A program made the translations under genes and the position numbers. Positions 29,758-46,203 of a stretch of 64,000 nucleotides of DNA are shown one piece after another. The stretch is from Sphingobium sp. Ant17. Its GTDB lineage: Bacteria > Pseudomonadota > Alphaproteobacteria > Sphingomonadales > Sphingomonadaceae. The notes under the pieces were generated by a model. The model made no database searches. It saw nothing but the letters and a program-made list of their open reading frames with translations, and was not told where the DNA came from. Numbering within the stretch: the first letter of the stretch is position 1; each line of letters starts with the position of its first letter. The stretch is taken from assembly GCF_000588875.1 (NCBI RefSeq), contig NZ_JEMV01000009.1, forward strand, positions 1-64,000. Reading direction: 5' to 3'.

Positions 29758-31175
29758 GCAGGCGTGCCCTCCGGCAGCCCCGGCGCGGCCTTAGTCGCCG
29801 CGACAGCCAGGAGGACCGTCACGGCGCAGGATGCCAGCCGCGTCCGCAGGCTGTCGGCGCGACTGGTCAGGATGATCGGCACTCGTGCGCCCAGCACGAC
29901 CCCTGCGGCATCCGCGCCGCCCAGGAAGGTCAATTGCTTGGCCAGCATATTGCCCGCCTCGATATTGGGGACGACCAAAATGTCCGCGCGGCCCGCGACG
30001 GGCGAGACGATGCCCTTTTCCCGTGCGGCCGCTTCGCTGACGGCATTGTCGAAGGCCAGCGGGCCATCAAGCAGTCCGCCGGTGATCTGGCCCCGATCGG
30101 CCATCTTGCACAGGGCCGCTGCATCGAGCGTCGATGGCATGGATGCGGTCACCGTCTCGACCGCTGACAGGATCGCCACCTTGGGTTCGGCCTGGCCCAG
30201 GACATGGGCGAGGTCGATCGCGTTGCGGATGATGTCGGCCTTGGCCTCCAATGTGGGGGCAATGTTGATCGCCGCGTCGGTGATGATCAGGGGATTGGGG
30301 TGGCCGGGAACATCCATGACATAGGCATGACTGATCCGGCGTTCCGTCCGCAAGCCGGTCGCGCGGGACACGATCGCGCCCATGAGTTCATCGGTGTGGA
30401 GCGATCCCTTCATCAGCAGCCGGGCTTCGCCGGAGCGTACCAGTTCGACCGCCTTCGCGGCGGACTCATGGCTGTGGATGCTCGGCACGATGCGAAGGGC
30501 GCTGATGTCCTTCCCGGCTTCCTCGGCGGCCTGACGGATGCGGGCCTCGGGACCGACCAGGATCGGCACGATCAGCCCCGCCTCCGCCGCTTCGACCGCA
30601 GCGGCGAGAGCCGCGGCCGAGCAGGGATGCGCCACCGCCGTTGTCACGGGATGGCCCGACGCCGCCTCAATCAACCGGTTATAGCCATTATGATCGGACA
30701 ACCGGATGTCGGGCAGGGCGATGCGCGGACGGCGGATCTTGTCGGTCGGGGCCTTCACCTCCGCCTCGCCGGTGATGACCGTCTCGCCATTCTGGTTCAC
30801 GCAGCGACAATCGAGCAGCACGATGCTGCGGTCCGGCTGCGTGGCCGTGACGGTGACGGAGGCGGTGATCTGATCGCCGACCCCCACCGGGCGCAGGAAC
30901 CGCAACGACTGGCCGAGATAGATGGTGCCAGGGCCCGGCAGTTCGGTGCCCAGCACCGCCGACAACAGGCCCGCCCCCCACATGCCATGGGCGATGATGC
31001 GGCGGAAAAAGTCCGTCTCGGCAAATTCGCTGTCGAGATGGGCCGGGTTCACATCGCCAGACACCAGCGCGAAGAGCTGAATATCCTTGACCGACAGCGT
31101 GCGGGTGACGCTGGCGGTATCGCCGACCTTTATCTCGGCGAAGGTCCGGTTTTCGATCATCTCGACATCGGTCAT
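29754..31175 (-). CDS. Bifunctional MaoC-like enoyl-CoA hydratase / phosphate acetyltransferase
   Basis: 473 residues made of two domains. Residues 1 to about 145 are a hot-dog MaoC domain (LFALVSGDVNPAHLDSEFAE is the hydratase motif with Asp and His). Residues from about 160 form a phosphate acetyl/butyryltransferase domain (PILVGPEARIRQA, LMKGSLHTDELMGA, NIAPTLEAKADI, AGNMLAKQLTFLGGADAAG). The fusion could join enoyl-CoA hydration to acyl phosphate formation. It lies three bases after phaC and overlaps ackA, giving a PHA/acetyl-CoA overflow operon. Confidence 0.92.
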   Translation of the reverse strand: MTDVEMIENRTFAEIKVGDTASVTRTLSVKDIQLFALVSGDVNPAHLDSEFAETDFFRRIIAHGMWGAGLLSAVLGTELPGPGTIYLGQSLRFLRPVGVGDQITASVTVTATQPDRSIVLLDCRCVNQNGETVITGEAEVKAPTDKIRRPRIALPDIRLSDHNGYNRLIEAASGHPVTTAVAHPCSAAALAAAVEAAEAGLIVPILVGPEARIRQAAEEAGKDISALRIVPSIHSHESAAKAVELVRSGEARLLMKGSLHTDELMGAIVSRATGLRTERRISHAYVMDVPGHPNPLIITDAAINIAPTLEAKADIIRNAIDLAHVLGQAEPKVAILSAVETVTASMPSTLDAAALCKMADRGQITGGLLDGPLAFDNAVSEAAAREKGIVSPVAGRADILVVPNIEAGNMLAKQLTFLGGADAAGVVLGARVPIILTSRADSLRTRLASCAVTVLLAVAATKAAPGLPEGTPA

Positions 31176-31178
31176 GGA

Positions 31179-32936
31179 TTATTTCTCCAGAACGTAGAGG
31201 CCCGGCGCATCGCCGAGCGTGGGATAGCCCTGGTCGGGCGCGCCCATCGACGGCGGCGGCTGAGGCTCGCCCGAACGCGCGTCCAGCCAGTCCCCCCATT
31301 CGGGCCACCATGACCCTTCCTTGCGCGGTGCGACCGCAAACCATTCATCCGGTGCGAGGGCAGCGCCATCGGCCTCCCGCGTCAGGACATGATAGCGTCG
31401 CCTCGCATGGCCCGGTTCGGATACGATACCGGCGTTATGCCCGCCACTGGTCAGGATGAAGGTGGTTTCGGCCCCGGTCGCCAAATGGATCTTGTGAACC
31501 GATCGCCAGGGCGCGACATGATCCCGCTCGGTCCCGACCACGAACAAGGGCGCACGGATCGCGGATAGGGCGACGGTGCGGCCATCGACCGCGAACTTGC
31601 CTTCGGCCAGTTCGTCATTGAGGAACAGACGGGTCAGATATTCGCTGTGCATCCCATAGGGCATGCGCGTGCCATCGGCATTCCAGGCCATCAGGTCGTT
31701 CATCGGCGGGCGTTCGCCCATTAGATAGGTCTGGAGTATCTGCGACCAGACGAGATCGTTGGACCGCAATATCTGGAATGCGCCGCCCATTTGCGCGCTG
31801 TCGAGATAGCCGCGTGTCGACATCAAATTCTTGAGCGTAGCCAGTTGCGATTCGTCGATGAACAGTCCGAGTTCGCCAGGTTCGCTGAACTCCGTCTGCG
31901 CCGCCAGCAGGGTGATGCTGGTCAGCCGCTCATCGCCGTCGCGCGCCATGGCGGCAGCGACAATGGCCAGCAACGTGCCGCCCAGACAATAGCCCACGCC
32001 ATGGATTTTCGCGCTGCCGGTGATGGCACCGACGGCATCCAGCGCGGCCATCGCGCCCAAGCGACGATAGGCGTCGAGGTCGAGATTGCGGTCTTCGCTC
32101 GTGGGATTGTGCCAGGAGATCATGAACACCGTATAACCCTGCCCCGTCAGCCAACGGACCAGCGAATTTTCCGGCGACAGGTCGAGAATATAATATTTCA
32201 TGATCCAGGCAGGCATGATCAGGATCGGTTCGGGACGGACCTGCTCGGTCGTCGGCGCATATTGGATCAGTTCGATCAGAGCATTGCGCCACACGACCTT
32301 GCCTGGGGTCGCGGCCACGGTTTCGCCGACTCGGAACGCCTCGGCACCCACCGGCGGCTCGCCCCGCGCTTGGCGCTGCATGTCCTGCGCCATGTGATTC
32401 ATGCCATCGATCAGGCATTTGCCGCCCGTTTCCACGATTTTGCGCTGTAGAGCCGGATTGGTGGCGAGGAAATTGTTGGGGGCGAACATGTCCAGCATCT
32501 GCCGCGCGGCGAAGGAGGCCTGTGCTTCATGCGCCTTGGACACGCCACCGATGCCGGTCGTCGCGGCATGCCACCATTGCTGGTTGAGCAGGAAGGCCTG
32601 GGTCAGGAAATTGAAGGGCGACTGTTGCCAGGCGGGGTCGGAAAAGCGCCGGTCCTGCGGCAGCGGCTCGATAGCGGGAGCCGCGTCGGGATCGCTAGCG
32701 CTACGCCCCATGTAATCGAACAGGCGCAGATATTTTCGGCCCATTTTCGCGGCCAGTTGCATCTGCTTGCCGGGCGATGAGGCAAGGTGCATCGCCCAGT
32801 CCGCACCAGCAAGGAACATGGTCGCGGGAGAAAGGCCATGCGTCGCTTGTGCGATCATCGCACCGGCCGCCTGATCCATGGAGTCCGCAATGCCGTCCAG
32901 CGGATCGTTGCCAGGGTGGCGGCTGTCATATGTCAT
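31179..32936 (-). CDS. phaC: Class I poly(3-hydroxyalkanoate) synthase family protein
   Basis: 585 residues from ATG 32936, the usual class I size; the frame is open further upstream but the added residues look like non-coding translation. The lipase-like box is VGYCLGGTLL, with the active-site Cys in G-x-C-x-G-G. The Asp is in GTERDHVAPW and the His in SGGHNAG. The N-terminal domain includes PFNFLTQAFLLNQQWW. It polymerises hydroxyacyl-CoA into storage polyester. The downstream genes make and consume acetyl phosphate. Confidence 0.92.
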   Translation of the reverse strand: MTYDSRHPGNDPLDGIADSMDQAAGAMIAQATHGLSPATMFLAGADWAMHLASSPGKQMQLAAKMGRKYLRLFDYMGRSASDPDAAPAIEPLPQDRRFSDPAWQQSPFNFLTQAFLLNQQWWHAATTGIGGVSKAHEAQASFAARQMLDMFAPNNFLATNPALQRKIVETGGKCLIDGMNHMAQDMQRQARGEPPVGAEAFRVGETVAATPGKVVWRNALIELIQYAPTTEQVRPEPILIMPAWIMKYYILDLSPENSLVRWLTGQGYTVFMISWHNPTSEDRNLDLDAYRRLGAMAALDAVGAITGSAKIHGVGYCLGGTLLAIVAAAMARDGDERLTSITLLAAQTEFSEPGELGLFIDESQLATLKNLMSTRGYLDSAQMGGAFQILRSNDLVWSQILQTYLMGERPPMNDLMAWNADGTRMPYGMHSEYLTRLFLNDELAEGKFAVDGRTVALSAIRAPLFVVGTERDHVAPWRSVHKIHLATGAETTFILTSGGHNAGIVSEPGHARRRYHVLTREADGAALAPDEWFAVAPRKEGSWWPEWGDWLDARSGEPQPPPSMGAPDQGYPTLGDAPGLYVLEK

Positions 32937-33323
32937 CAAAAAGGGTTCCAATTGCGAGCGGTGGCCAGTCCTGTTCAAGCGATGTCGCGTTGAACGAAAG
33001 CGGGAATCCAAGTGCAGGATCGACCGATGACGGGCTTGCTTCAAGGAAACCTCGCACCGATCGCGCGTCTGAAGGGTGCGTAGGAGAAAAGGGCGCGGGA
33101 GGACCATCCGTAGATGCCGCAGATGTCGGCGGCGGCAAAAACGCACCTTCGAGATCGCAACTGACCGGGTGTGCGCGCATTGCAAAATTGAGACGATTAA
33201 AAGCCCCGTCGTCACGCTCCGGTCACGGGATTGGCATCAGCATGTTACATTAGGCAGCCATTGGCGCGGACCATGGCGCGCGCACATGCATCGGTCAGCC
33301 CAGAGGCTTTGGATGGTCAAGAC
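32937..33323. other. 387-base divergent intergenic region, no gene seen
   Basis: Region between the phaC start (minus) and the glycosyltransferase start (plus). Open frames crossing it have no recognisable protein content or ribosome binding sites. It must hold the divergent promoters. I see no convincing -35/-10 pair and no FNR/FixK-type box here. Confidence 0.6.
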
Positions 33324-34489
33324 ATGCGCGTCATGCTGTTTCTGAAAGGCTTTGGACCGGGCGGCGTTGAACGGATTGCGCTGCGCCTGGGCGATGGTCT
33401 GCGACGGACAGGCTGCGACCTGACCGTCATCGTCGCAGCCGCGACAGGACCGATGGACAATCCATTGGGGCAGGCCTGCCTCGTGGCGCAGCCTTGGCCA
33501 GTCATCGGCATGCGCTGGCCCCTCCTGCGCCTGGCCTATAGCTATGGCGCGAAATACGCCGTGCGCCACCCGCGATCTTATTCTGCCCTGGGAATGCCTA
33601 TACGATCGTTGTCGTGCTGCTGAAGCTCCTCCTGGGGCGAGATTGCCCGCCGATCATCGCGAAGATCAGCAACGACTTGCAGCGCCGCGACCTGCCCCGG
33701 GCCATCCGTCCGCTCTATCAGCTCTGGCTATGGGTACAGGGCCGGTTGATCGATCATTTCGCCACCTTGTCGTTGCCCATGAGCGAAGAAGTCATGAGGC
33801 ATATGCGTGTTGGGCCGGAGCGTCTCCATGTCGTGCCCAACCCGGTTCTGGACGATGTCGATGTCGGCTCACATCGGAAGCAGAGCCGCTGCTGTCGCGC
33901 TGGCCGTCGCTTCGTGGCGGTCGGGCGGCTGGAACGACAGAAGAACTACCCCGCGATGCTGCGCGCCTTTGCTGTGGGGGCGCGCAAAGATGATCGGCTG
34001 ACCATTTTTGGTGAGGGCAGCGAGCGCGACGCTCTGGTCGCGCTGGCCGCATCACTGGATATTGGCGATCGGGTCGATATGCCCGGCCATTGCCCGGACT
34101 TAGGCGTGCGTCTCGGGGCGTATGACATTTTGCTCTTGTCATCGGTCTATGAAGGCCTGCCCGGCGCGGTCGTCGAAGCGTTGGCGGCGGGCCTTGGGGT
34201 CATCGCGACCCGTTGCAGCGTCAGCATGGCCGATCTGCTCGACCAGGGCGCATTGGGTATATTGACGGAATGCGGCGACGAAAGCGGCTTTGCCCTGGCC
34301 ATCAGGACGTTGGAGCCTGGCCAAGACCTGGCCCGCGCTCGGCGCAAGGCAAGCCATTATACGCTCGAAGCCGCCGTCCCGGCCTACGCCGCGCTCTTCG
34401 ACCATGTCGTCGCCCAGCGACAGGCGCGCAGCCGCGTTACGCGCCAGCCTTTCTTCCTTCGTTCAGCGACCAGCGTGAGGCCCGTATGA
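33324..34489 (+). CDS. GT4-family glycosyltransferase (frameshifted as given)
   Basis: The N-terminal frame starts MRVMLFLKGFGPGGVERIAL, the donor-independent glycine loop of GT-B enzymes, and breaks at the CCC run at 33569-33571. One added C joins it to ILFCPGNAYTIVVVLLKLLL and the rest, giving 388 residues. The C-terminal half has FVAVGRLERQKNY and SSVYEGLPGAVVEALAAG, the E-x7-E type sugar-nucleotide site of family GT4. The product probably adds a sugar to a lipid or glycan at the membrane. GGATGG precedes ATG 33324. It opens a cluster of envelope genes and overlaps the next gene (ATGA). Confidence 0.83.
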
Positions 34490-35436
34490 GCACTGCCGAT
34501 ATTGCGTCACCACGCCTGATGGATGCCTCGCCCCTGATCGATGGCCGCGACCTGTATGTTCCGGCGCCCCTGGCCAAATCGGGCCGCTACTGGATCGCTT
34601 GGTTCGGTCCCGTCATTTCGCTGGCGCTGCTGGCTGCGGTATTCCTGCAGCGGGGAAGCGTCGACATCCCTTCACTACTCGGACTCGTCCCGCGCACTCC
34701 TGTGTTCTGGGGCCTGTTCATCCTGACATACAGCCTGACACCGCTGTTCGACTGGCTGATCTTCAACCGGCTCTGGTCGATCCCTGCGGGCGGACTGGCG
34801 GCGCTGTTCCGCAAGCGGCTCAGCAACGAACTGCTGCTGGGTTATGTGGGTGACGTCTATTTCTACACCTGGGCGCGGCGCCATGTGCGGATGGCAGGAT
34901 CCCCTTTTGGCGCAGTCAAGGATTCCGCGATCCTGTCGGGCGTCATGGGCAATGTCGTGACGCTGGCGATGCTGGGCCTCACCTTTCCGCTGCTGTCCTC
35001 CCTGCCGCTGGCGATCGACGGGCGGACGCTTGGCATTTCGCTGGCCATATTGGTGTTGACCTCCGTGGTGCCGATGCTGCTGGGGCGCCGCATCTTCGGC
35101 TTGCCACCAGCGGAACGGCGCATGGTGGCGGGGATCCATTTCTTGCGGATCGTCGCCAATTTGCTGCTTTATGCGCTGCTGTGGCACTTGATGCTGCCTG
35201 ATGTCGCGATCAGTTGGTGGGTTATGCTCTCGACCGTCCGCCTCGTTCTGTCGCGCCTGCCGCTGGTGCCGAACAAGGATGTGCTTTTTGCCGGCGTGGC
35301 CACCTTCCTTGTCGGGCGCGAAGGGGAGATAGGCGAAATATTGGGGCTGCTCGCGAGCCTCCTACTCGCCACCCATCTATTGGTGGCTGTGTTGCTGGGG
35401 GCGAGCGGCATCATCCGGCGGAGGATAGCCCCATGA
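34486..35436 (+). CDS. Polytopic membrane protein of unknown function
   Basis: 316 residues. About seven hydrophobic segments can be seen: WIAWFGPVISLALLAAVFL, FWGLFILTYSLTPLFDWLIF, GVMGNVVTLAMLGLTFPLL, LGISLAILVLTSVVPMLL, FLRIVANLLLYALLWHLML, WWVMLSTVRLVLSRLPLV and LLASLLLATHLLVAVLL. A polar 30-residue N-terminal tail precedes them. A cytoplasmic or periplasmic loop contains DVYFYTWARRHVRMAG. No known transporter or enzyme motif is recognised. Its coupling to glycosyltransferase and DUF2141 genes suggests a role in moving or presenting a glycolipid, which is inference. Confidence 0.75.
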   Translation: MSTADIASPRLMDASPLIDGRDLYVPAPLAKSGRYWIAWFGPVISLALLAAVFLQRGSVDIPSLLGLVPRTPVFWGLFILTYSLTPLFDWLIFNRLWSIPAGGLAALFRKRLSNELLLGYVGDVYFYTWARRHVRMAGSPFGAVKDSAILSGVMGNVVTLAMLGLTFPLLSSLPLAIDGRTLGISLAILVLTSVVPMLLGRRIFGLPPAERRMVAGIHFLRIVANLLLYALLWHLMLPDVAISWWVMLSTVRLVLSRLPLVPNKDVLFAGVATFLVGREGEIGEILGLLASLLLATHLLVAVLLGASGIIRRRIAP

Positions 35437-35960
35437 TGGCCCTGCCTTTGCTGTCGTCCGCGCTGCTGCTGACAACTGGTTTTCTTCCGTCGACGCCCGC
35501 TCTCGGCAAGGCAGAGGGGCAATGTCGCGCCAACGAGAGTGGCCCTGCTTTCGTGATAGACATCATCGGGTTGAAGGATCGCGAAGGCAATCTGAAGCTC
35601 GAAGTCTATCCCGCAAACGATGCCGACTTCCTTCAGGACGACAATATTCTGATCACGCAGGGCAAGGTGTTTCGCCGGGTCGAGGTGCCCGTTCCGGCGA
35701 GCGGGCCGACAACGCTATGCGTCCGGGTGCCCGGCCCCGGCCGCTACGCTGTGAGCGTGCTTCATGACCGGGATGGCAATCGCAAATTCGGCCTCTCGGT
35801 CGATGGCGTTGGTTTTGGCAGCAATCCCAAGCTCGGCCTAGGGAAGCCCAAGGCCATGGCGGCATCGATCGTGGCCGGTTCGGGCGTGACGCGAGAACGG
35901 ATCGTCATGAACTATCGCCGGGGCCTCATGTCCTTTGGCCCTCTAACACCAAGGCGATAG
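35433..35960 (+). CDS. DUF2141-family secreted protein
   Basis: 175 residues with a signal peptide (MMALPLLSSALLLTTGFLPS, cleaved before GKAEG). The mature part is a beta-sandwich of the DUF2141 type with the family pattern FVIDIIGLKDREGNLKLEVY, then PGPGRYAVSVLHDRDGNRKF and GFGSNPK. DUF2141 proteins are periplasmic or surface proteins of unknown function, frequently near glycosyltransferases in sphingomonads. The start overlaps the preceding stop (ATGA). Confidence 0.85.
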   Translation: MMALPLLSSALLLTTGFLPSTPALGKAEGQCRANESGPAFVIDIIGLKDREGNLKLEVYPANDADFLQDDNILITQGKVFRRVEVPVPASGPTTLCVRVPGPGRYAVSVLHDRDGNRKFGLSVDGVGFGSNPKLGLGKPKAMAASIVAGSGVTRERIVMNYRRGLMSFGPLTPRR

Positions 35961-35964
35961 GACC

Positions 35965-37134
35965 ATGCGGATCGTCGATGTCTGTGCTTTCTATTCCGAC
36001 CGGGGCGGCGGGGTAAAAACCTACGTCCGGCACAAGATGCTGGCGGGGCCAAAGGAAGGCCATGAGATCATCATCCTGGCACCGGCCGCAGAGGCCGGCG
36101 TCGAGATCATCAATGATCATGCCCGGATCGAATTTGTCCGCGCGCGCCGCTTTCCGCTCGATGGCCGCTATCATTATTTCCATGACGAAGCGGCGCTGCA
36201 TGCCCGGTTGGATGCGTTGCGCCCGGATCTGGTCGAGGCGTCCACGCCCTGGGCCAGCGCGACGATGGTCGCGAATTGGCGCGGTTCAGCCCCGCGCAGC
36301 CTGATCATGCATGCCGACCCGCTCGGCAACTATGCCTATCGCTGGTTTCGCGCGCTGGCACCACGCCCCGTGATCGATCGGGGTTTCGACTGGTTCTGGC
36401 GGCATTTGCGGCGGATGGACGCCCGGTTCGACCATATCGTCTGCGCCAGCGACGATCTGGCAGCGCGTCTGGTCGCCGGGGGGCTGCGTCATGTCGTGAC
36501 CAACCATATGGGTGTTCAGCCGGGCATATTCCTGCCTGCGCATCGCGACCCTGACCTGCGCCGCCGCCTGCTTGCCTCTTGTGGTCTGCCCGAGGGTGCC
36601 GTGCTGTTGCTCGGCGCGGGCCGCCATGCTCCTGAGAAGCGCTGGCCGATGATCATCGATGCGGCGACGGCGAGTGGCTTTGCCCGGCCCATCGGACTGG
36701 TGATTGCGGGCGATGGCCGGGCACGCGCCAGCGTCCAGCGCGCGGCGGCGGGCAATCCGCATGTGCGACTGATCGCCCCCGTTACCGATCGCGCTGCCTT
36801 CGCGACGCTGCTCGCCAGCGCCGATGCCTTGGTCCATGGCAGCGAGTCCGAAACATTCTGCATGATCGCCGCCGAAGCCCGCGCCAGCGGCATCCCCATG
36901 TTCTTGCCCGACAGCGGTGCCGCGGCGGACCATCTGGTGCCGGGAGCGGGCTATCATTATGCTGCGGCAGAGGGCGCGAGCCTGGTCGAGCAGCTTGATC
37001 ATTTCGTCGCCGATGGCCCGGCAAAGCATCTGGCGGTCGCGCGCGCGGCCGCTGCGGGAACGCGGACGATGGATACCCATTTTGCGGATCTGTTCGCCCT
37101 CTATGCGATCCACGGCCGCGCCATGGCCGCATGA
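35965..37134 (+). CDS. GT4-family glycosyltransferase
   Basis: 389 residues, two Rossmann-like domains. The N-terminus MRIVDVCAFYSDRGGGVKTY carries the glycine-rich loop. The C-terminal half has LLGAGRHAPEKRW, a donor-site Arg/Lys pair, and HGSESETFCMIAAEARASG, the E-x7-E motif. The donor is a nucleotide sugar; acceptor unknown. AGGACC precedes ATG 35965, four bases after the DUF2141 stop. It is the second GT4 enzyme of the cluster, in a different subfamily from the first. Confidence 0.88.
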   Translation: MRIVDVCAFYSDRGGGVKTYVRHKMLAGPKEGHEIIILAPAAEAGVEIINDHARIEFVRARRFPLDGRYHYFHDEAALHARLDALRPDLVEASTPWASATMVANWRGSAPRSLIMHADPLGNYAYRWFRALAPRPVIDRGFDWFWRHLRRMDARFDHIVCASDDLAARLVAGGLRHVVTNHMGVQPGIFLPAHRDPDLRRRLLASCGLPEGAVLLLGAGRHAPEKRWPMIIDAATASGFARPIGLVIAGDGRARASVQRAAAGNPHVRLIAPVTDRAAFATLLASADALVHGSESETFCMIAAEARASGIPMFLPDSGAAADHLVPGAGYHYAAAEGASLVEQLDHFVADGPAKHLAVARAAAAGTRTMDTHFADLFALYAIHGRAMAA

Positions 37135-37256
37135 CAGGCTGGCGTCATTTCCATGACGGCCTTGCCGCGAAAGTTTAACCGCGCTGCCGCGTGACCGACA
37201 TTAGGACGACTCATTGCCCGGCTACCGTTCGACCACTTGGGTGGGGGGGCGCTATC

Positions 37257-38345
37257 ATGTATCGACCAGTTCGCGCTTTGTTATTTGCAGGGCTTGTTGC
37301 GCTTGCCGCCGCCGGATCGACCCAGGGCGGCGACTATACCGACCAGCGGTGGAGCATCGCCGGGTCCGTCCCGGCCGACGGGCAGTTGTCGGTCATGACC
37401 TACAATATCAAGGGATTACCCTGGCCGATCGCATTGGATCGCAGCGCGGCGCTGAATAGTATCGCCGACCGGCTCGCCGCACTGCGACGGTCGGGCAAGC
37501 AGCCCCATATCATCCTGCTGCAGGAAGCGTTCACGCCGGAAGCCGCGCAGATCGCGGCCCGCGCAGGCTATATCCATGTCGCGCAAGGGCCGGACGCGGC
37601 GCACCGGTCCGACGCGGCAACGGATGGGGCGGATCAGTCCCACCTGGCGCAGGCGCGGTGGGATCGTGGTGAAGCGGTCGGCAAGCAATTGGGTAGCGGC
37701 CTGCAAATTCTGTCCGACTATCCCATCGCCAAGATCGATCGCATGGCCTTCCCCGATTTCGCCTGCGCCGGGTTCGACTGTTTGGCGAACAAAGGCGTGC
37801 TGATCGCGCATCTCAAGGTGCCCGGCTTCGACCGGCCGGTCAGCATCGTCAACACGCATCTCAACGCCCGCAAGGCCGCCGGTGTGCCGATCGGCCGATC
37901 CCATCGCGCCTTTGCGCGGCAAGTCGACCTGATGGCCCAGTTCGTTGCGCAACATGTGCCTGCCGATCAACCGATGATTTTGGGCGGCGACATGAATATC
38001 GGACAGGATGGTCATCGGGCCGATGCCTTTTTCAGCCGTTTCGCTCGGGCCGGAATGACCTTCATTGATCCTGACCTGGGTGGCGCACGGCGCGCGCTGG
38101 CCAAATCCGCCTTGCCCAGCGAGGCGGTACGCCGGGATTTGGCCTATACCAGTGGGCGGGCAAAAGACTGGCTGTTTGCAAGGGACGCCGGGCATCGCCC
38201 CCTCAAGGTTCTGGCGGCGCATGTGCCTTTCGGGTCCGAACCCACCGGCAAGCCGCTCTCCGATCATTTTGGTTATGTCGTCGACTATGCCCCAATCAGC
38301 AACATCGACCTTGCACGATCGGGCCGCACGGGAGCAGCGTCGTGA
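37257..38345 (+). CDS. Secreted endonuclease/exonuclease/phosphatase-superfamily phosphodiesterase
   Basis: 362 residues with a signal peptide (MYRPVRALLFAGLVALAAAG). EEP-fold motifs are in order: SVMTYNIKGLP (Asn near residue 49), LLQEAF with the metal-binding Glu, VNTHLNA with His, GGDMNIGQ with the Asp-x-Asn pair, and LSDHFGYVVD with the final Asp-His. Secretion and the MTYNIKGLP form are closer to bacterial sphingomyelinase-type phosphodiesterases than to DNA repair enzymes, but substrate cannot be proven. A small hairpin (CGTCATTTCCATGACG, 37143-37158) lies in the 122-base gap before it. The next gene overlaps by four bases. Confidence 0.82.
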   Translation: MYRPVRALLFAGLVALAAAGSTQGGDYTDQRWSIAGSVPADGQLSVMTYNIKGLPWPIALDRSAALNSIADRLAALRRSGKQPHIILLQEAFTPEAAQIAARAGYIHVAQGPDAAHRSDAATDGADQSHLAQARWDRGEAVGKQLGSGLQILSDYPIAKIDRMAFPDFACAGFDCLANKGVLIAHLKVPGFDRPVSIVNTHLNARKAAGVPIGRSHRAFARQVDLMAQFVAQHVPADQPMILGGDMNIGQDGHRADAFFSRFARAGMTFIDPDLGGARRALAKSALPSEAVRRDLAYTSGRAKDWLFARDAGHRPLKVLAAHVPFGSEPTGKPLSDHFGYVVDYAPISNIDLARSGRTGAAS

Positions 38346-39496
38346 ACCGGGCTGTCGTGCCCCTCTTGGTACTCATCTGCACCGCAGGGACCGCGCAGGC
38401 GCAAGACGGGCCGTTGGAGACAGGCATCAGCTTTTCGCTGAAACGCAAGGCCGCCCTGTCCCCGCTCATCTATCCCCGACATGCTTATTCTGCATTCCAG
38501 CCACGTATGGACGCGGTAAACCCAGTCAATGCCGACGACCGTGACCAGGAAATCCATATCCGGCTGCACAAGTCCGCGCGTCGGTTCGTTGGAACCGCCA
38601 TCGCGACACCGCTTGCACCGGATATGCTCTCTCGCAGTCGGATGACGCGCTATGTGTTGGAAGATCGTGTGCTGATCGGCGAGCATGTCACCGCCACCAT
38701 GGGTTGGCATGGCATCAAGGTGAGCAACCGTAACGCTAATGTGACCGTCGGTCCGGGCCGCGAACGTTTGCGCACGCGCGACTGGTTCCTGCCGCGCGGG
38801 ACGCTGACCCTACAGTCCGGTCACAACCTGCGGCTGACATTGGATTATGCTGAAAAATTACGCGCGTACAGCGAAACGGGCATAAATGGGCCGATGGGAT
38901 TGACCCATGACGGGTTCCTGTTGCTGCGCCGGACGCTGAAGCCGGAAACGCAAAACCGCATGGCCGTGCGTGCCGACTGGACGGCGGCACCTGCTCTCAA
39001 TCTGTCCTTGGCCTTGCATGGCGGACGGCTGGACGACCAGCTGCGCTTTACCGGGCGTGGCACATTGCCGGTCAATAGCGGGTCCGCGCGGATCGAAGGC
39101 GCGATCCTGGAAGCACGGCATCATGTGACGCCGCAGCTGCGATGGTCGGTCCGCTATAGCGACGCGCGCGTGCGCGTGTCCGGGGGCAGCATGGTGCGTG
39201 AACATAGTCTGTCGGCCGGATCGGTCTGGCAGGACGGCCCGTGGCGCGCGGCGCTGTCAGTGACGCGCAACAGCGCGCCCGCACTGGCTGCCTATGATGA
39301 GCGCGCCTTGCGGGTCGAGGCTGGCGTCGATTACGCCCTGGCTGCGATTGGCGGACGACCGCTTAGCGTGTCGCTGCATATGACGGACCCGGATCGGTTG
39401 GCGAGCGGAACATTCGCGCGGGATGATCTGTCCGGCTCGCTCCGCGCCGCCGACCAGGTGCGAACGGTGATGGCAAGCGCGCGGCTTGGCTGGTAG
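38342..39496 (+). CDS. Probable outer-membrane beta-barrel protein, unknown function
   Basis: 384 residues from GTG 38342. A signal peptide (MNRAVVPLLVLICTAGTAQA) is followed by many alternating polar/hydrophobic strands with Arg- and Tyr-rich turns, such as LRWSVRYSDARVRVSGG, LRVEAGVDYALAA and LSVSLHMTDPDR, ending in VRTVMASARLGW with a terminal aromatic residue as in outer-membrane barrels. No TonB plug or porin motif is seen. It is coupled to the EEP gene (GTGA overlap) and overlaps the next gene. Confidence 0.7.
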   Translation: MNRAVVPLLVLICTAGTAQAQDGPLETGISFSLKRKAALSPLIYPRHAYSAFQPRMDAVNPVNADDRDQEIHIRLHKSARRFVGTAIATPLAPDMLSRSRMTRYVLEDRVLIGEHVTATMGWHGIKVSNRNANVTVGPGRERLRTRDWFLPRGTLTLQSGHNLRLTLDYAEKLRAYSETGINGPMGLTHDGFLLLRRTLKPETQNRMAVRADWTAAPALNLSLALHGGRLDDQLRFTGRGTLPVNSGSARIEGAILEARHHVTPQLRWSVRYSDARVRVSGGSMVREHSLSAGSVWQDGPWRAALSVTRNSAPALAAYDERALRVEAGVDYALAAIGGRPLSVSLHMTDPDRLASGTFARDDLSGSLRAADQVRTVMASARLGW

Positions 39497-41006
39497 GCGT
39501 ATCCTTATTCCATCGCGGATCGTCATCCTGCTGCTGTGCGCGGCTGTGATGCTGACCGTGGCGGCCTTCCGCCCGATCGATCATGACGAGGGGCAATATG
39601 TCGGCGCGGTCGCGATGATGCGCCTTGGCCTCCCCTATCGCGACTTCGCCTACCTCCAGACGCCGTTGCAACCGCTGCTGTTCGCGCCACTGGCGTGGAT
39701 CGCCGACGGATGGCTGTTTCCGACGCTCCGCGCGGTCAATGCTCTGCTGACTATGGCAGCGACGGCCTGCATATGGCTTGCGGCACGGCGCGCGGGCGCA
39801 TCGCACCGGGCGGCGGCCATCGCGGCAGCCGCCTTGTTGTCCAGCCATATGCTGTTGTTCGCGGGCAGTGTGGCGCGCAATGATGCGCTGCCCTTGCTGT
39901 TGATGACGGCTGGGCTGGCCGCCATGCTGACGCTATTACAGGATGATCGCGCGCGATGGACGGCGCTGCTGGCTGGCCTATTGCTGGGTGCAGCCGCATC
40001 AGCGAAAATCAGCTATGGCCTTCCCGCCGCCGCTGTCGGCCTCTTTGCGCTGCTGCATTGGCGGGCTCTAGGTGCGGAAAAGGTCGGGCTGATCGCGTTG
40101 GGTGGCGTGCTGGGTGGCTTGCCGACCGTCTGGCTCGCCTTGCTGGCACCCGAAGCGGCCTGGTTCGGGATCATCGACTATAGCCTCAAGGCCCCGTTCG
40201 AGTGGCGGACATGGAATGGGCAGGCGTTCATGCTGGACTGGCCGCTGAGCCTTGTACGGCTCGCCCGCTATCTCGCGCAGGGCTGCGGCCTGATCGCGCT
40301 GGTCGCCATTGCCTTGGTCGCGAGCCGGCGGCGTACAATGGCCGAGCAGCTGCTCGATATGGTGATCATCGCCGGGCTGATCGCGGCCTGGCTGCCGCGG
40401 CCCATCTATGTCCAGTATCTGGGGCCTTTGCTGCCCGCACTTTTCCTTCGCTTTGCACTACTGACCGACGCGCCTTTCTGGCACCGGCCCGCTGGCCGCG
40501 CCCTGATCGCGCTTGGTGTCATCGCAGGCCTGGTCCAAACGATGATGGAGACAGGCCCAAATATCCTAGCGGGTCACAGCCCGGTGCATATCGTCCTGCG
40601 CGATGCGCAAGCATTGGACCGCATCATGGCGTCGGCCGCCGTGTCAGGGGCCGTCGTCACCCTATCGCCTGAGCGGGCAGTCGATATGGCAGTGCCGATC
40701 GATCGCCGCTTCGTCACGGGTTCTTTCCTGTTCCGCACGCGCCATATCCTGACACGCGATCAAGCCCGGGCCTTCCATGCGACTCATTTCCTGTCCTTGG
40801 CAGCGGACCTGGAGGCGGTGCCGCCCGCTGCCATTCTGACGGGAAGCGAAGAGCAGCCCAGCGCTGCATTTCCGCGCGGACTGGATGCGGTGCTGATCGA
40901 TTGGGCGCGATCGCATGGCTATCGCTCGGTTCCCCTGCCTTCCGGCACCCACCAGCTCTTCGTGACTCCACCATCCCTTGCCAAGAGACGCGACGCGCAA
41001 TTGTGA
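39486..41006 (+). CDS. GT39-like (GT-C fold) membrane glycosyltransferase
   Basis: 506 residues, around ten membrane helices with a soluble C-terminal region. The first extracytoplasmic loop has RPIDHDEGQYVGAVAMMRLG, the acidic D-x-E motif of GT-C enzymes that use polyprenyl-phosphate sugars, and PYRDFAYLQTPLQPLLFAP matches dolichyl-mannosyltransferase-like families. The start appears to be TTG 39486, overlapping the barrel gene; no better ATG lies before the first helix. It would transfer a sugar on the periplasmic side, complementing the two cytoplasmic GT4 enzymes. Confidence 0.8.
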   Translation: MAGRRILIPSRIVILLLCAAVMLTVAAFRPIDHDEGQYVGAVAMMRLGLPYRDFAYLQTPLQPLLFAPLAWIADGWLFPTLRAVNALLTMAATACIWLAARRAGASHRAAAIAAAALLSSHMLLFAGSVARNDALPLLLMTAGLAAMLTLLQDDRARWTALLAGLLLGAAASAKISYGLPAAAVGLFALLHWRALGAEKVGLIALGGVLGGLPTVWLALLAPEAAWFGIIDYSLKAPFEWRTWNGQAFMLDWPLSLVRLARYLAQGCGLIALVAIALVASRRRTMAEQLLDMVIIAGLIAAWLPRPIYVQYLGPLLPALFLRFALLTDAPFWHRPAGRALIALGVIAGLVQTMMETGPNILAGHSPVHIVLRDAQALDRIMASAAVSGAVVTLSPERAVDMAVPIDRRFVTGSFLFRTRHILTRDQARAFHATHFLSLAADLEAVPPAAILTGSEEQPSAAFPRGLDAVLIDWARSHGYRSVPLPSGTHQLFVTPPSLAKRRDAQL

Positions 41007-41073
41007 CCGTCTTTGCAACGCAATGGTCGTATTGCTAGCCTAGATTGGCGGATCTTCGCCACTGGAAGCCATC

Positions 41074-41898
41074 ATGCCCCGCCTATTGCTGATCTTCGCA
41101 AGCCTGTTTTTCGCACTGAGTCCTGTAAAGGCACAGGAGGCGGCCGAGACGCCATCGCCGCCGCCCGCTCCGGTCGTCCTGCGCGTCACTGCGCCGGAAG
41201 CGCGTCAAGGCGTCGCGTCGGACGGCACGCATCTTTATGCCATCGACAATGACCGGATCGGCAAATATCTGATCGCCACCGGCAAGCGGATCGCCCAGTG
41301 GCAAGGTGAACGACGCCTGTTCCCGCATATGAACAGTTGCACCGTCGCAGGGCATGACCTCGTCTGCGCGGCGTCCAACTATCCGCAGGTGCCCCAGACC
41401 AGCGCCATCGAGATTTTCGACACCAGCACGATGCGCCACAAGCGCACGATCAGCCTGGGCTTTACCCCTGGTTCCTTAACCGCGCTTGATCGGCACGACG
41501 GAAAATGGTGGGCGGTCTATGCCAATTATGCGGGCAAAGGAGGCGAACCAAACCGCGACCATCGCTACACGCTGCTCGCGCGGCTGGACGACGCATTCCG
41601 GCAGGAAGCGGCCTGGACCTTTCCGACCGATGTTCTGGCCCGCTTTGCCCCATTCAGTTGCTCTGGCTTGAGCTGGAGCAAGGATGGCCGACTTTATGCG
41701 ACGGGCCATGACCGGCCGGAAATGTACGAACTGGCATTGCCCGACGCCGGGTCGCGCCTGGAACTGCGCCGCATGATCGGGATCGCGACGCCGGGACAGG
41801 CGATCGATTGGGATCCGGTGGAGAAAGGCCGTCTGTGGTCCATCGACCGCGCCGGGACTGAAATGGTGGCGAGTGTCGTGCAGGATGGCAACGACTGA
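41074..41898 (+). CDS. Secreted beta-propeller-like protein of unknown function
   Basis: 274 residues with signal peptide MPRLLLIFASLFFALSPVKA. Repeated strand-turn units such as GVASDGTHLYAIDNDRIGKY, ALDRHDGKWWAVYANYAG and GLSWSKDGRLYATGHDRPEMY suggest a YncE/NHL-like propeller. Two cysteines near residues 90 and 97 (NSCTVAGHDLVCAAS) may pair. It follows the GT39-like gene after 67 bases in which TTGCAA and TAGCCT spaced 17 bases apart could serve as a promoter. Function not recognised. Confidence 0.7.
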   Translation: MPRLLLIFASLFFALSPVKAQEAAETPSPPPAPVVLRVTAPEARQGVASDGTHLYAIDNDRIGKYLIATGKRIAQWQGERRLFPHMNSCTVAGHDLVCAASNYPQVPQTSAIEIFDTSTMRHKRTISLGFTPGSLTALDRHDGKWWAVYANYAGKGGEPNRDHRYTLLARLDDAFRQEAAWTFPTDVLARFAPFSCSGLSWSKDGRLYATGHDRPEMYELALPDAGSRLELRRMIGIATPGQAIDWDPVEKGRLWSIDRAGTEMVASVVQDGND

Positions 41899-41980: not shown

Positions 41981-42055
41981 TGGTGATCCCAACGGGATTC
42001 GAACCCGTATCGCTGCCGTGAAAGGGCAGTGTCCTAACCGTTAGACGATGGGACC
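41981..42055 (-). tRNA. tRNA-Glu(UUC)
   Basis: 75 bases with encoded CCA. Read on the minus strand the acceptor stem pairs GGTCCCA with TGGGATC (one G-U pair). The anticodon loop CTTTCAC gives anticodon TTC, and the T arm has GGTTCGAATCC. It lies convergent to the upstream secreted protein gene and just downstream of recJ. Confidence 0.97.
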
Positions 42056-42156: not shown

Positions 42157-43923
42157 TCAGTCGGCCCATGCAGCGTCGTCCAGATGGAGTTCGGCGGCGG
42201 GGCGGCTGCCCCAGTCGTCGATTTTCGCCCGTCCCGCGACCCACAGCCGCCGGTCGTAGGACGCACCCAATATCGCCTGGCCCATGTCGCTTTCGGCCTG
42301 GCGAAAGGCGATGGTCTTGATCGACCGGCCATCCGCACCCGCCATGATCGCGCGCAGATGGCCGTTGCCAACCACATCGGCCTTGACCACGCGCATCGGC
42401 CCGGCCGCAATCCGAGGGGCGGGCCAGCCCGCGCCATAGGGGCCGCCCTGTTCGATGGCGGCGACGAATTCCGGGTTCACGCCGGCCGGGGCCAGCACCG
42501 CATCGATCAACAACGCCCGGTCGTCGCGCGCGCGCGCCACCGCGCTTGCCAGTCGTTCGTCGAGGAAATCGGCGAGCGCATCGAGTTTGTCCGCCGCGAC
42601 GGTGAGCCCTGCCGCCATGGCATGGCCGCCACCTGCGACCAGCAGGCCGCTATCCTTGGCTGCCATTACCGCCGCGCCCAGGTCCACGCCGGAGATCGAC
42701 CGGCCCGATCCTTTGCCTACGCCATCCTCGTCCAGCGCGATGACGATCGCCGGTCGCCCGGCCTTTTCCTTGATCCGTCCCGCGACGATGCCGATCACGC
42801 CCGGATGCCAGCCGAGCCCGGCAATCACTGCCACCGCGCGATTGCCCTGCGCGTCGAGCAGCGCTTCGGCCTGTTCCTGCACAGTCGATTCGATCGCGCG
42901 ACGCTCCTCATTATAGTGATCGAGCTGTCCCGCGATCCGCGCCGCCTCCGCCGGGTCCAGCGTCGTGAGCAACCGCACCCCCAGATCCGCCTGCCCGACG
43001 CGCCCGCCCGCATTGATGCGCGGCCCCAGCGCAAAACCCAGATCATGGCACAGCGGCGCGCGCGTGAGGCGGCTGGCGTCGATCAGTGCAGCGAGACCGA
43101 TGTTGCGCCGCTTGGCCATCACCTTGAGCCCCTGCGCCACGAAAGCGCGGTTTAGGCCGCGCAGCTGTGCCACGTCCGCCACCGTGCCGAGCGCCACGAT
43201 ATCGAGCAATTCCATCAGCGCGGGTTCTGCCCGCGTCGCGAACCAGCCGCGCCCGCGCAACAGCCGCACCAGCGCCGCGCCGAGCAGGAAGGCGACACCG
43301 ACAGCGGCGAGATGACCATGGGTTGCCGCTTCGTCCCCCTCGTCCAGCCGATTGGGATTCACGAGCGCCAAGGCCTCGGGCAGCGCAGCGCTGCATTTAT
43401 GATGATCGACCACAACGACATCGACACCGGTGGCCTTCGCCATGGCCAGTGCTTCAAACGCCTGCGCGCCGCAATCGACGGTGACGATCAGGGTCGCGCC
43501 CTCGCCCGCCAGGCGCACCAGCGCCTCGCCCGAAGGACCATAGCCCTCCATCAGGCGATCAGGGATATAGGGCTTGGCCTCCAGCCCCAGATCGCGCAGC
43601 AGCCGGATCAGCAGCGCCGCACTGGTCGCGCCATCGACATCATAGTCGCCGAAGATACGCACATCCTCGCCCCGCTGCACCGCATCGGCCAACCGCTCGG
43701 CCGCCGTGTCCATGTCACGGAACAGGCTGGGATCGGGCATGAAGGCGCGTATCGTCGGGTTGCGATGCGCTTCCAGCGCCTCGCGTGGACAACCGCGCGC
43801 CATCAGCAATTGCGTCACCAGGTCGTCGGGCAGATAGGAGGGATCACGCGCGTCCGCCCCCTCCCCCCGCCAACGCCAAGGTTGGCCCATCAGGGAGCGC
43901 GAAATATTGAGGGCAAATGTCAT
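42157..43923 (-). CDS. recJ: Single-stranded-DNA-specific exonuclease RecJ
   Basis: 588 residues. The DHH phosphoesterase motifs are FGDYDVDGATSAALL near residue 90, TVDCGAQ, and VVVVDHHK near residue 155; the C-terminal DHHA1 domain has VAGGGHAMAAGLTV. RecJ degrades single-stranded DNA 5' to 3' in recombination, base excision and mismatch repair, using Mg2+ or Mn2+. Length and the OB-like C-terminal extension are normal. The start ATG is at 43923; the next gene upstream is divergent. Confidence 0.95.
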   Translation of the reverse strand: MTFALNISRSLMGQPWRWRGEGADARDPSYLPDDLVTQLLMARGCPREALEAHRNPTIRAFMPDPSLFRDMDTAAERLADAVQRGEDVRIFGDYDVDGATSAALLIRLLRDLGLEAKPYIPDRLMEGYGPSGEALVRLAGEGATLIVTVDCGAQAFEALAMAKATGVDVVVVDHHKCSAALPEALALVNPNRLDEGDEAATHGHLAAVGVAFLLGAALVRLLRGRGWFATRAEPALMELLDIVALGTVADVAQLRGLNRAFVAQGLKVMAKRRNIGLAALIDASRLTRAPLCHDLGFALGPRINAGGRVGQADLGVRLLTTLDPAEAARIAGQLDHYNEERRAIESTVQEQAEALLDAQGNRAVAVIAGLGWHPGVIGIVAGRIKEKAGRPAIVIALDEDGVGKGSGRSISGVDLGAAVMAAKDSGLLVAGGGHAMAAGLTVAADKLDALADFLDERLASAVARARDDRALLIDAVLAPAGVNPEFVAAIEQGGPYGAGWPAPRIAAGPMRVVKADVVGNGHLRAIMAGADGRSIKTIAFRQAESDMGQAILGASYDRRLWVAGRAKIDDWGSRPAAELHLDDAAWAD

Positions 43924-44049
43924 GCGGCTGCTCTAGACGGGGCATTGGCCGCTGGGAAGCGCTCCCGTCGCGGCGAATTGTCGCCTGGGCGGAACCGGCG
44001 CAACCCTTTGAGCGTATTGCAAGTTCGTCGGCTAACTATAGGGCTGGCG

Positions 44050-46203
44050 ATGAAGGGGCGTTATATTTCCATGATCAGACGGCAGGCACACCATGTCCGG
44101 CGCATGTTGGGCCTCATCCTCGTCACGGCGTCGCCCCTACCCTTGATGGCGCAGACGGCCAATGATCCCGCTCCTGTAACGACACCACCGTCCTTGCCCT
44201 ATGATGCTGGGGCGGATGATGAGCCGATCCTGCCTGACGATCAGTTTGAGGCGCGCCTGCCCCAGGTGGACAGCGCCGATACGGACGCACCCCTACCCTC
44301 TATCGACAGTTGGATCGACCAGCAGATGCCGCAACAGGCCGACGCGCCGACGCAGCTGCCACCTGCCACGGAGCCTGCGCAGGAGGTGGAACTCGCCCAG
44401 CCGCTGCCTCCGCTCGACAGCGTTACCGTCCCCGCCAACGCCGCGTCGGACGACGATCCCAATGCGAAGCAACCCGACATCCGCTATGCCACCAGCGTCG
44501 AAGGATTTGGCAAGACCGGCCTGGATGACGTGTTCAAGGACGCATCCACCCTGATCGACGGCGACGGCAAGGCGGAAACCGCCGCCATGGTGCAGGCGCG
44601 CGCGCAGGAGGATGAGAAGCTCGCCGTGCGACTGCTTTATTCCGAAGGCTATTATGACGCGACGGCGCTCGCCAGCCTTGATCAGACTGGCGATGGCACG
44701 CTCAAGGCCGTGATTTCAGTAACGCCGGGCAAGCGCTACAAGATTGGCGATGTCGTCATCACCGCCGGTCCGACCGTGCCGCCAGGGCTGGTCCGTGATA
44801 GTCTGCCGCTCAAGACCGGCGATTATATCGTCGCCACGACGGTCGAAAGCGCCGAAGCCAATGTCGCGCTGCGATTGCCCGAGAACGGTTATGCCTTCGC
44901 CAAGGTGGGCGAACGCGACATCCTGCTCGACCCGGCGACCATAACGGGCGACTATAGGCTGCCGGTCGATACCGGTCCGCGCGGCACCTTCCGCAATATC
45001 ACGACCAGCGGCGACAAACAGGCCTTTGGCGCCGATCATATGGAAGTCATCCGCCGCTACAAGCCCGGCCAACTCTACGACAGCCGCGATGTGGATGACC
45101 TGCGCAAAGCATTAGTAGCGACGGGCCTCTTTGCCAGTGTCGGCGTCGATCCGGTGCGCACAGGTGAGGCCGGACCCGACGGCACCGAATATGTCGACCT
45201 GCATGTCGAGCAGGAGGCGGGGCCAGCGCGCACACTGGCTGGCGAGGCGGGCTATGGCACCGGCCAAGGGCTGCGCGCGGAAGCGACCTGGACCCATCGC
45301 AACCTTTTCCCACCCGAAGGCGCGCTGATCGGCAGCGTCGTCGCGGGCACCCAGGAACAGGGCGTGTCGGGCACCTTCCGCCGCTCCAATGCCGGCAAGC
45401 GCGACCGCACGTTCCAGGCCGGGGCGCTGCTCAACCATCAGAAATATGATGCCTATGAAGCCTTTACCGCAGGCCTCAACATCACCTGGGCACGCCAGTC
45501 GACGCCGATCTTCCAGAAACGCTGGACCTATAGCTATGGCGCGGAAATCCTGCTGTCGAACGAACAGACCACGATTGATGCCGCGACGGGTGAGAATAAG
45601 CGACTGACCTATTTCATCGGCGCGTTGCCCGTTCAGGTGGGCTATGATCGGTCCAACGACCTGCTCAACCCCACAAGGGGCTTCCGCGCCAATCTGCGCG
45701 TGTCGCCAGAGGCCTCGTTGCAGGGCAATATCTCGCCCTATGTTCGCAGCACCTTCGACTTGAGCGGCTATTTCCCGGTTTCGGATAGCTTGGTCATCGC
45801 CGCCCGGACCCGCCTTGGCACCATCAACGGCGTAGCACGCGACGATGTTGCGCCGTCGCGGCGCATTTATGCCGGCGGCGGCGGATCGGTGCGCGGCTTT
45901 GGCTATCAGGAATTGGGGCCGAAGGACGTGAATGCCGATCCGATCGGCGGCCGATCCGTCAATGAATTCGCGGTCGAGGGTCGCTATCGCTTCGGCAATT
46001 ATGGCGTAGTCGCCTTTGTCGATGCGGGACAGGTTTATGAAAGCCAGATCCCCGAATTTTCCGACATGCGCTATGGCGTGGGTCTCGGTGGGCGCTTCTA
46101 TACCAATTTTGGCCCCTTCCGCGCCGACATTGCCATGCCGATCAACCGGCAACCGGGCGAATCCAAATTCGCCGTCTATATCGGGATTGGGCAGGCTTTC
46201 TGA
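44050..46203 (+). CDS. tamA: TamA-like BamA/Omp85-family outer membrane assembly protein
   Basis: 717 residues. After a signal sequence (about residue 38, SPLPLMAQ) there is an unusual acidic, Pro-rich spacer of about 100 residues (PILPDDQFEARLPQVDSADT). POTRA domains follow (YYDATALASLDQTGDGTLKA region), then a 16-stranded barrel with the Omp85 signature GGGGSVRGFGYQELGP near residue 615. TamA and the coupled TamB span the envelope and assist outer-membrane protein or lipid delivery. ATG 44050 has AGGGCTGG before it; ATG 44071 is a less likely start. The stop overlaps tamB by one base. Confidence 0.92.
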   Translation: MKGRYISMIRRQAHHVRRMLGLILVTASPLPLMAQTANDPAPVTTPPSLPYDAGADDEPILPDDQFEARLPQVDSADTDAPLPSIDSWIDQQMPQQADAPTQLPPATEPAQEVELAQPLPPLDSVTVPANAASDDDPNAKQPDIRYATSVEGFGKTGLDDVFKDASTLIDGDGKAETAAMVQARAQEDEKLAVRLLYSEGYYDATALASLDQTGDGTLKAVISVTPGKRYKIGDVVITAGPTVPPGLVRDSLPLKTGDYIVATTVESAEANVALRLPENGYAFAKVGERDILLDPATITGDYRLPVDTGPRGTFRNITTSGDKQAFGADHMEVIRRYKPGQLYDSRDVDDLRKALVATGLFASVGVDPVRTGEAGPDGTEYVDLHVEQEAGPARTLAGEAGYGTGQGLRAEATWTHRNLFPPEGALIGSVVAGTQEQGVSGTFRRSNAGKRDRTFQAGALLNHQKYDAYEAFTAGLNITWARQSTPIFQKRWTYSYGAEILLSNEQTTIDAATGENKRLTYFIGALPVQVGYDRSNDLLNPTRGFRANLRVSPEASLQGNISPYVRSTFDLSGYFPVSDSLVIAARTRLGTINGVARDDVAPSRRIYAGGGGSVRGFGYQELGPKDVNADPIGGRSVNEFAVEGRYRFGNYGVVAFVDAGQVYESQIPEFSDMRYGVGLGGRFYTNFGPFRADIAMPINRQPGESKFAVYIGIGQAF

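Follow-up and report, generated by a model that had tools for sequence, protein, structure and literature searches.

A cluster of eight genes was analysed in a stretch of 64,000 nucleotides from Sphingobium sp. Ant17 (contig NZ_JEMV01000009.1, positions 1 to 64,000 of the forward strand; hereafter the window). Comparison with related loci identified a conserved core of four of these genes, encoding two GT4 glycosyltransferases (GT4a and GT4b), a membrane protein (B) and a DUF2141 protein. The core is probably a module that glycosylates a lipid and includes a flippase-type protein, and it is reasonably likely that the lipid is a glycosphingolipid. Our best reading, of moderate confidence, is the extension and flipping of a glycosphingolipid, with putative substrate and product. 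This reading was built on gene order, conservation, predicted fold and nested occurrence with serine palmitoyltransferase (SPT), from which the substrate, the direction of flipping and the sugars were inferred. A literature search limited to open-licence papers found no description of the cluster among the papers listed.

Conserved core and its predicted flippase

The original prediction of eight genes in one direction, most of them overlapping, was borne out. All eight are located on the + strand at 33324-41898, and the coordinates give overlaps of 4, 4, 4 and 11 bases at four of the seven junctions, the remaining three being gaps of 4, 56 and 67 bases. The genes are as follows.

33324..34489, +, A (GT4a): GT4 glycosyltransferase in two pieces (Pfam, homologue frames)
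34486..35436, +, B: membrane protein, candidate glycolipid flippase (AF2 model, VIA-align, weak hhalign)
35433..35960, +, C: DUF2141 protein, probably secreted as judged by reading (PF09912, 62.6 bits, cut-off 24.4)
35965..37134, +, D (GT4b): GT4 glycosyltransferase (PF00534, 49.2 bits, over cut-off)
37191..38345, +, E: EEP phosphodiesterase, probably secreted as judged by reading, accessory (PF03372, 40.4 bits, over cut-off)
38342..39496, +, F: outer-membrane barrel candidate (TonB-type), accessory (PF00593, 31.3 bits, cut-off 27)
39486..41006, +, G: GT39/PMT-like membrane glycosyltransferase, accessory (PF13231, PF02366)
41074..41898, +, H: propeller-like protein, probably secreted as judged by reading, accessory (weak hits to solved chains)

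Conservation was examined in 80 named loci, the best 80 of 541, all of which had been picked for holding B and some of which lie on cut contigs; nine belong to the clade of the window and 71 do not. GT4b was present in 79 of them, DUF2141 in 72 and GT4a in 61, and a DUF2334 deacetylase (X), absent from the window, in 62. Genes A, B, C and D were found on one strand in 56 of the 80, in 39 of which X was there too. The other genes were much rarer among the 80 (EEP 18, barrel 10, GT39 10, propeller 11) and were concentrated in the clade of the window: EEP in 6/9 clade loci vs 12/71 others, the barrel in 7/9 vs 3/71, GT39 in 7/9 (the other two being cut contigs) vs 3/71, and the propeller in 8/9 vs 3/71. 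The conserved core is thus GT4a, B, DUF2141 and GT4b, and conservation does not extend to all eight genes as a unit. Conservation as a set held for these four genes and failed for the EEP, barrel, GT39 and propeller genes, which lie elsewhere or are absent in most loci. The core GT4a-B-DUF2141-GT4b was also seen in forty fetched stretches. The organisms represented were Sphingobium, Novosphingobium, Sphingomonas, Tsuneonella, Hephaestia, Polymorphobacter and metagenome-assembled genomes; the nearest among the best 80 of 541 loci was that of Sphingobium sp. CECT 9361 (B 86%, GT4b 94%). In a search of 100 genomes of relatives, the genome of the window included, a match to B was detected in 43, and within the genus in 29 of 61.

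The membrane protein B consists of 316 residues and leaves no space for a synthase domain. Pfam and NCBIfam alone gave it no name, as its Pfam matches were all sub-threshold and PF03706 (UPF0104/LPG_synthase_TM) was not matched at E values up to 1. The AF2 model, obtained from 58 sequences with a pLDDT of 85.7, contained 11 helical elements and not the seven originally described. In the suggested comparison with known flippases, made with VIA-align, ranks 1-6 were occupied by six MprF entries at Z 14.2-15.9. A best Z of about 14 is typical of helical models for which Foldseek finds no clear match, so that the weight of this result lies in the coverage and in the distance to the seventh row, which reached Z 7.1 over 68 residues. 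The alignments comprised 238-258 residues, corresponding to residues ~47-346 of MprF, with root-mean-square deviations of 4.1-4.6. Profile comparison by hhalign with a set of 23 UPF0104 proteins, including E. coli YbhN, gave a colinear alignment of 257 columns (probability 34%, E 4e-4), and a more diverse alignment gave 125 columns (38%, E 3e-4), while two control comparisons gave E 0.26 and 0.47. B thus looks, in its model, like the flippase domain of MprF over ~255 residues with weak colinear profile similarity to UPF0104 (YbhN), and differs from these proteins in lying outside PF03706 and in having no room for a synthase domain. We regard it as a candidate glycolipid flippase.

The two GT4 enzymes of the original prediction were both supported by Pfam, with the qualification that a frameshift near 33542 divides the first. 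GT4a is read in the frames 33324-33623 and 33614-34489, and its homologues matched one frame up to ~33542 and a different frame from there onward. It is a single open frame in all seven close relatives examined. The C-terminal part scored over the Pfam cut-off and the N-terminal fragment below it. The gene may be truly broken, or the split may stem from an error in the assembly. The best NCBIfam match of GT4a was an XrtA-system glycosyltransferase, below cut-off. That of GT4b was NF053787 (N-acetylglucosamine (GlcNAc)-phosphatidylglycerol (PG) synthase), at 142.5 bits where the cut-off is 480, and GT4b gave no match to solved chains at 1e-6. The third core protein, DUF2141, was modelled as a beta-sandwich with a pLDDT of 90.5, and Foldseek against the PDB returned nothing at E 0.001 for this model.

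The deacetylase joined the core in 62 of the 71 named loci outside the clade of the window and in none of the nine clade loci, and a profile search of the window's genome gave no DUF2334/COG3233 match. In the 100 genomes of relatives, DUF2334 was detected at E < 1e-10 in 22, all of which carried B within ~4 kb; within the genus, 20 of the 29 B-bearing genomes had it, as did none of the 32 others. Sphingobium fuliginis and a Novosphingobium are examples that carry the full core, and S. xenophagum and S. terrigena are members of the window's clade that lack the deacetylase. Weaker matches above E 1e-10 (e.g. G069, 4e-9), which occur with or without the flippase gene, were excluded from these counts. 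All five X proteins scanned from relatives matched DUF2334 over cut-off, and NF053788 (GlcNAc-PG deacetylase) was the sole match of the two that were run against NCBIfam (122 and 162 bits, cut-off 280). The deacetylase profile found one match among solved sequences, a peptidoglycan deacetylase, at 1e-4. A GT4b tree was constructed with the window and 76 named loci, leaving out L094 and L099. The 17 rows without deacetylase (the window and 16 loci) required eight changes, seven of them forced by well supported branches, which indicated that the absence of deacetylase arose several times. The eight rows of the window's clade formed one group with a support of 100/100. Nine named loci outside the clade were without deacetylase; in four of them (L114, L123, L142 and L153) the flippase gene is located less than 3 kb from the contig end, and the deacetylase may sit beyond it.

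Two described systems resemble this arrangement. In HexSDF of C. difficile, a lipid sugar transferase and a deacetylase are combined with an MprF/UPF0104-type flippase (PMC10128005), and the GpgSDF system of P. aeruginosa comprises a GT4, a COG3233 deacetylase and a predicted UPF0104 flippase (PMC12713373); the products of both are amino-sugar lipids (PMC10128005, PMC12713373). HexS is presumed to add N-acetylhexose to a lipid already bearing one sugar (PMC10128005). The clustering of a candidate sugar transferase, an MprF-like flippase and, in relatives of the window, a deacetylase is shared with hexSDF. With gpgSDF the core shares the GT4, the predicted flippase, the deacetylase of relatives, and the NCBIfam names that rank first for GT4b and for the deacetylases of two relatives. 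The core differs from hexSDF in having GT4 enzymes, a second GT4 and DUF2141, in the lack of deacetylase in the window's clade and in an occurrence that points to sphingolipid. It differs from gpgSDF in equivalog scores far below the cut-offs, in the extra GT4 and DUF2141, and in the lack of a DUF2334 match in the window's genome. The sub-cut-off scores, the two further core genes and the clade without deacetylase are the reasons why we did not class the core as a member of either system. The assignment of GT4b alone as the GpgS counterpart was considered and dropped, as the second GT4 enzymes described below outscored it on NF053787 (161-188 vs 142 bits).

Probable acceptor lipid of the core

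The co-occurrence of the core with sphingolipid synthesis was investigated in a class-wide draw of 289 alphaproteobacterial genomes, the window's own included, with limits that we set at 1e-60 for GT4b, 1e-10 for the flippase and 1e-75 for a second GT4, and with NF047599 as the SPT model. SPT was detected over cut-off in 39 of the 289 genomes and at E 1e-120 in 40. GT4b was found in 5 genomes, B in 8 and the second GT4 in 10, and, by the genomes listed, these sets were nested, GT4b inside B, B inside the second GT4 and the second GT4 inside SPT, all 10 genomes being over the SPT cut-off. Among the 100 genomes of relatives, SPT was over cut-off in 96, including 40 of the 43 with B. The window's genome (G000) encodes SPT at G000:C101:7958-9139 (589 bits, cut-off 500).

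The second GT4 of this genome, located at G000:C11:94485-95624 (L071:1474-2616), carries LFSGNYNY near its N-terminus. As all of its 10 carriers among the 289 genomes have SPT over cut-off, it is a candidate for the first ceramide glycosyltransferase. Of 15 loci read from outside the window's family, 13 have the second GT4 no more than 3.2 kb from B, and in 10 the distance is under 1 kb. These 15 loci represent 14 genomes, since L063 and L064 come from the same genome and overlap, although each has a flippase-like copy of its own. The exceptions were L068, with no second GT4 in the stretch, and L190, a cut contig. Stretches of G062, G071, G072, G085 and G093, which have a B match, were left out of the count, and L060, L184 and L185 fall outside it as they belong to the window's genus or family.

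A physical link was observed in G222, a distant genome of another alphaproteobacterial family, where the second GT4, GT4b, B and SPT share 13.4 kb (L189:4960-18385, G222:C19). The order is second GT4, GT4b, B, LptF and LptG, followed by a DUF2141-like gene on the opposite strand and then by a fatty acyl-AMP ligase, an SDR protein and SPT; LptF and LptG scored over the NCBIfam cut-off, and B is located 7 kb from SPT. By its gene content this is a candidate locus for sphingolipid synthesis and export. In Caulobacter, the sphingolipid region has been described to contain second copies of LptC, LptF and LptG along with a potential flippase (PMC11324152). The nested occurrence with SPT and the linkage in G222 favour a glycosphingolipid over PG as the acceptor, without proving it. 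The sugar order of GSL-4, one of the sphingomonad glycosphingolipids (GSL), is mannose-galactose-glucosamine-glucuronic acid. Glucosamine is present in both GSL-3 and GSL-4 (PMC4018217). A GlcNAc transferase acting together with a deacetylase would yield this sugar, and this also favours a glycosphingolipid acceptor.

GT4 enzymes acting successively on ceramide are described in another alphaproteobacterium, Caulobacter, as Sgt1 and Sgt2 (PMC6445935), to which the enzymes considered here were likened by description only; the Sgt1/Sgt2 product differs in being a hexose-hexuronic acid lipid without amino sugar (PMC6445935). The fullest single cluster that we encountered was that of G063, from another family (L064:5223-12366), where the second GT4, an LptF-like gene, GT4a, the flippase, DUF2141 and GT4b lie on the same strand and the deacetylase on the opposite one.

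Accessory genes and genomic setting

The original assignments of the DUF2141, EEP, barrel and GT39-like proteins agreed with Pfam, which scored each over cut-off; for gene G these were PF13231 (PMT_2; 31.1 bits vs 26.1) and PF02366 (PMT; 27.2 vs 22.7). The EEP gene has a likely start near 37257. All seven solved chains matched by its product are bacterial sphingomyelinases and beta-hemolysin, and its score for TIGR03395 (sphingomyelin phosphodiesterase) was 36.2 bits. As this is far below the cut-off of 248.2, the weak likeness to sphingomyelinase is taken as a hint only. In E. coli K-12 (L221:3543-6498), ybhP with an EEP domain, clsB and ybhN (PF03706) stand side by side, and an EEP gene thus adjoins a flippase-like gene as in the window. 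The secreted propeller was supported in part: secretion was judged by reading and weak matches to solved chains were obtained, with Pfam giving sub-threshold matches only. Eight of the nine weak matches are entries named Cake or Scone, which we take to be designed propellers, and fall on one stretch of ~27 residues. In relatives, the propeller gene often lies on the opposite side and strand. The roles of the DUF2141, EEP, barrel and propeller proteins are candidate assignments.

Upstream of the cluster a - strand reading frame (31179-33215) appears PhaC-like by reading, and downstream lies a tRNA-Glu gene (41981-42055, -). Promoter-like and terminator-like sites at the cluster were not more frequent than in shuffled sequences. 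A search of a plasmid collection returned two small pieces only, covering 8% and 1% of the query. The source genome is a draft of 199 contigs with 96% completeness and 6% contamination. Judged by reading only, PhaC-like and hydratase/phosphotransacetylase-like genes (29754-33215, -) run divergently from the cluster, and TamA-like and TamB-like genes (43312-49015, +) follow past a RecJ-like reverse-strand gene.

Proposed pathway and alternatives

We propose that the core would act like HexSDF and GpgSDF as a module for lipid glycosylation and flipping. GT4b, together with GT4a where intact, would add sugar to an existing lipid on the cytoplasmic face of the inner membrane, and the MprF-like protein B would carry the glycosylated lipid across to the periplasmic side. 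The deacetylase, which most named relatives beyond the window's clade possess, would convert the N-acetylhexosamine to a free amino sugar. The window's clade is without deacetylase, and its product should therefore retain the acetyl group or bear a different sugar. In this clade the GT39-like enzyme may add one further sugar in the periplasm. The most likely acceptor would be uronosyl-ceramide, and the core would then be a candidate for the route by which sphingomonads form GSL-3 and GSL-4, which contain glucosamine. A more detailed scheme is put forward tentatively and with rather low probability. In this scheme an X-A-B-C-D module would supply the steps missing between uronosyl-ceramide and GSL-3/GSL-4, GT4b adding GlcNAc, the deacetylase producing glucosamine and GT4a adding the next hexose; B would be the first bacterial glycosphingolipid flippase, passing the lipid to an LptF/LptG-like exporter; and the window's clade would have lost the deacetylase and recruited the GT39-like enzyme to make a new N-acetylated or otherwise altered glycosphingolipid.

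The original suggestion of a glycolipid, perhaps a glycosphingolipid, is supported in part, by the MprF-like B, the likeness to hexSDF/gpgSDF, the co-occurrence with SPT and the G222 locus. The following points weigh against it or against the reading proposed here. The core comprises only four of the eight genes, the other four being elsewhere or absent in most named loci; GT4a carries a frameshift in the window; and spt is located on contig C101 while the cluster is on C9 of the draft. VIA-align was the single source of the MprF likeness, at Z values near those usual for helical models, and Foldseek against the PDB returned nothing at E 0.001 and no MprF among the 50 rows listed. The hhalign probability stayed at 34-38%. 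The cut-offs of NF053787 and NF053788 were not reached, and the former name fails to single out GT4b, since the second GT4 enzymes score higher. Outside the genus, DUF2334 was found in only 2 of 14 genomes with B. SPT at 1e-120 also matches E. coli among the controls, and SPT was below cut-off in three of the 43 B-bearing genomes of relatives (G033, G072 and G093, all fragmented or incomplete). The chance of all eight B genomes falling among the 40 with SPT at 1e-120 of the 289 is 7e-8 if genomes are independent, yet these eight represent three families only and are not independent, and the real weight is much less. Finally, CerR is periplasmic in Caulobacter (PMC11087976), which is awkward for cytoplasmic GT4 enzymes using finished ceramide.

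Other products were also considered. The core might make an amino-sugar phospholipid of the glucosaminyl-PG type, as gpgSDF does in P. aeruginosa, with no link to sphingolipids. GT4b and two relatives' deacetylases take their best NCBIfam names from this pathway, and MprF flips lysyl-PG (PMC10128005). The scores, however, lie far under the equivalog cut-offs (142 of 480; 122 and 162 of 280), and the flippase gene stands beside sphingolipid genes in G222. PG is nearly universal, yet the flippase family was found only with SPT in the 289 genomes, and we consider this product unlikely. The nested occurrence with SPT also argues against the extension of a glycosyl-diacylglycerol, as by hexSDF for HNHDRG in C. 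difficile, which appears less likely still even though the same three enzyme kinds are involved and HexS is thought to use a monohexosyl lipid (PMC10128005).

Decoration of an exopolysaccharide or other surface glycan instead of a lipid would fit the below-cut-off XrtA-system match of GT4a and the presence of the GT39-like enzyme and the barrel in the cluster. The conserved core, however, includes a protein modelled like the MprF flippase, and scans of the eight genes revealed no polymerase, Wzx or ABC exporter, as the original prediction had stated for polymerase and ABC export genes; this explanation is therefore improbable. The adjacency of DUF2141 genes to crtG in many Sphingomonadales (PMC5989583, PMC9241875) might mark a carotenoid-linked function, with the GT4 enzymes glycosylating carotenoids. 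As the occurrence tracks SPT, and no crt gene was seen in scans that took in only part of the neighbours, we give this very little probability.

Glycosphingolipid extension and flipping thus remains our preferred reading, and it bears on several steps of the pathway in sphingomonads, which have glycosphingolipids in place of lipopolysaccharide, some of them recognised by natural killer T cells (PMC4018217). In the papers cited here, several glycosyltransferases of the glycosphingolipid glycan are described as still unknown (PMC13028669), no flippase or transporter of bacterial sphingolipids as having been identified (PMC11087976), and sphingolipid transport to the outer membrane as unknown (PMC11324152). 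The analysis provides named candidate genes for the missing glycosyltransferase, flippase and transport steps, and the species with and without the deacetylase make the idea open to lipid mass spectrometry.

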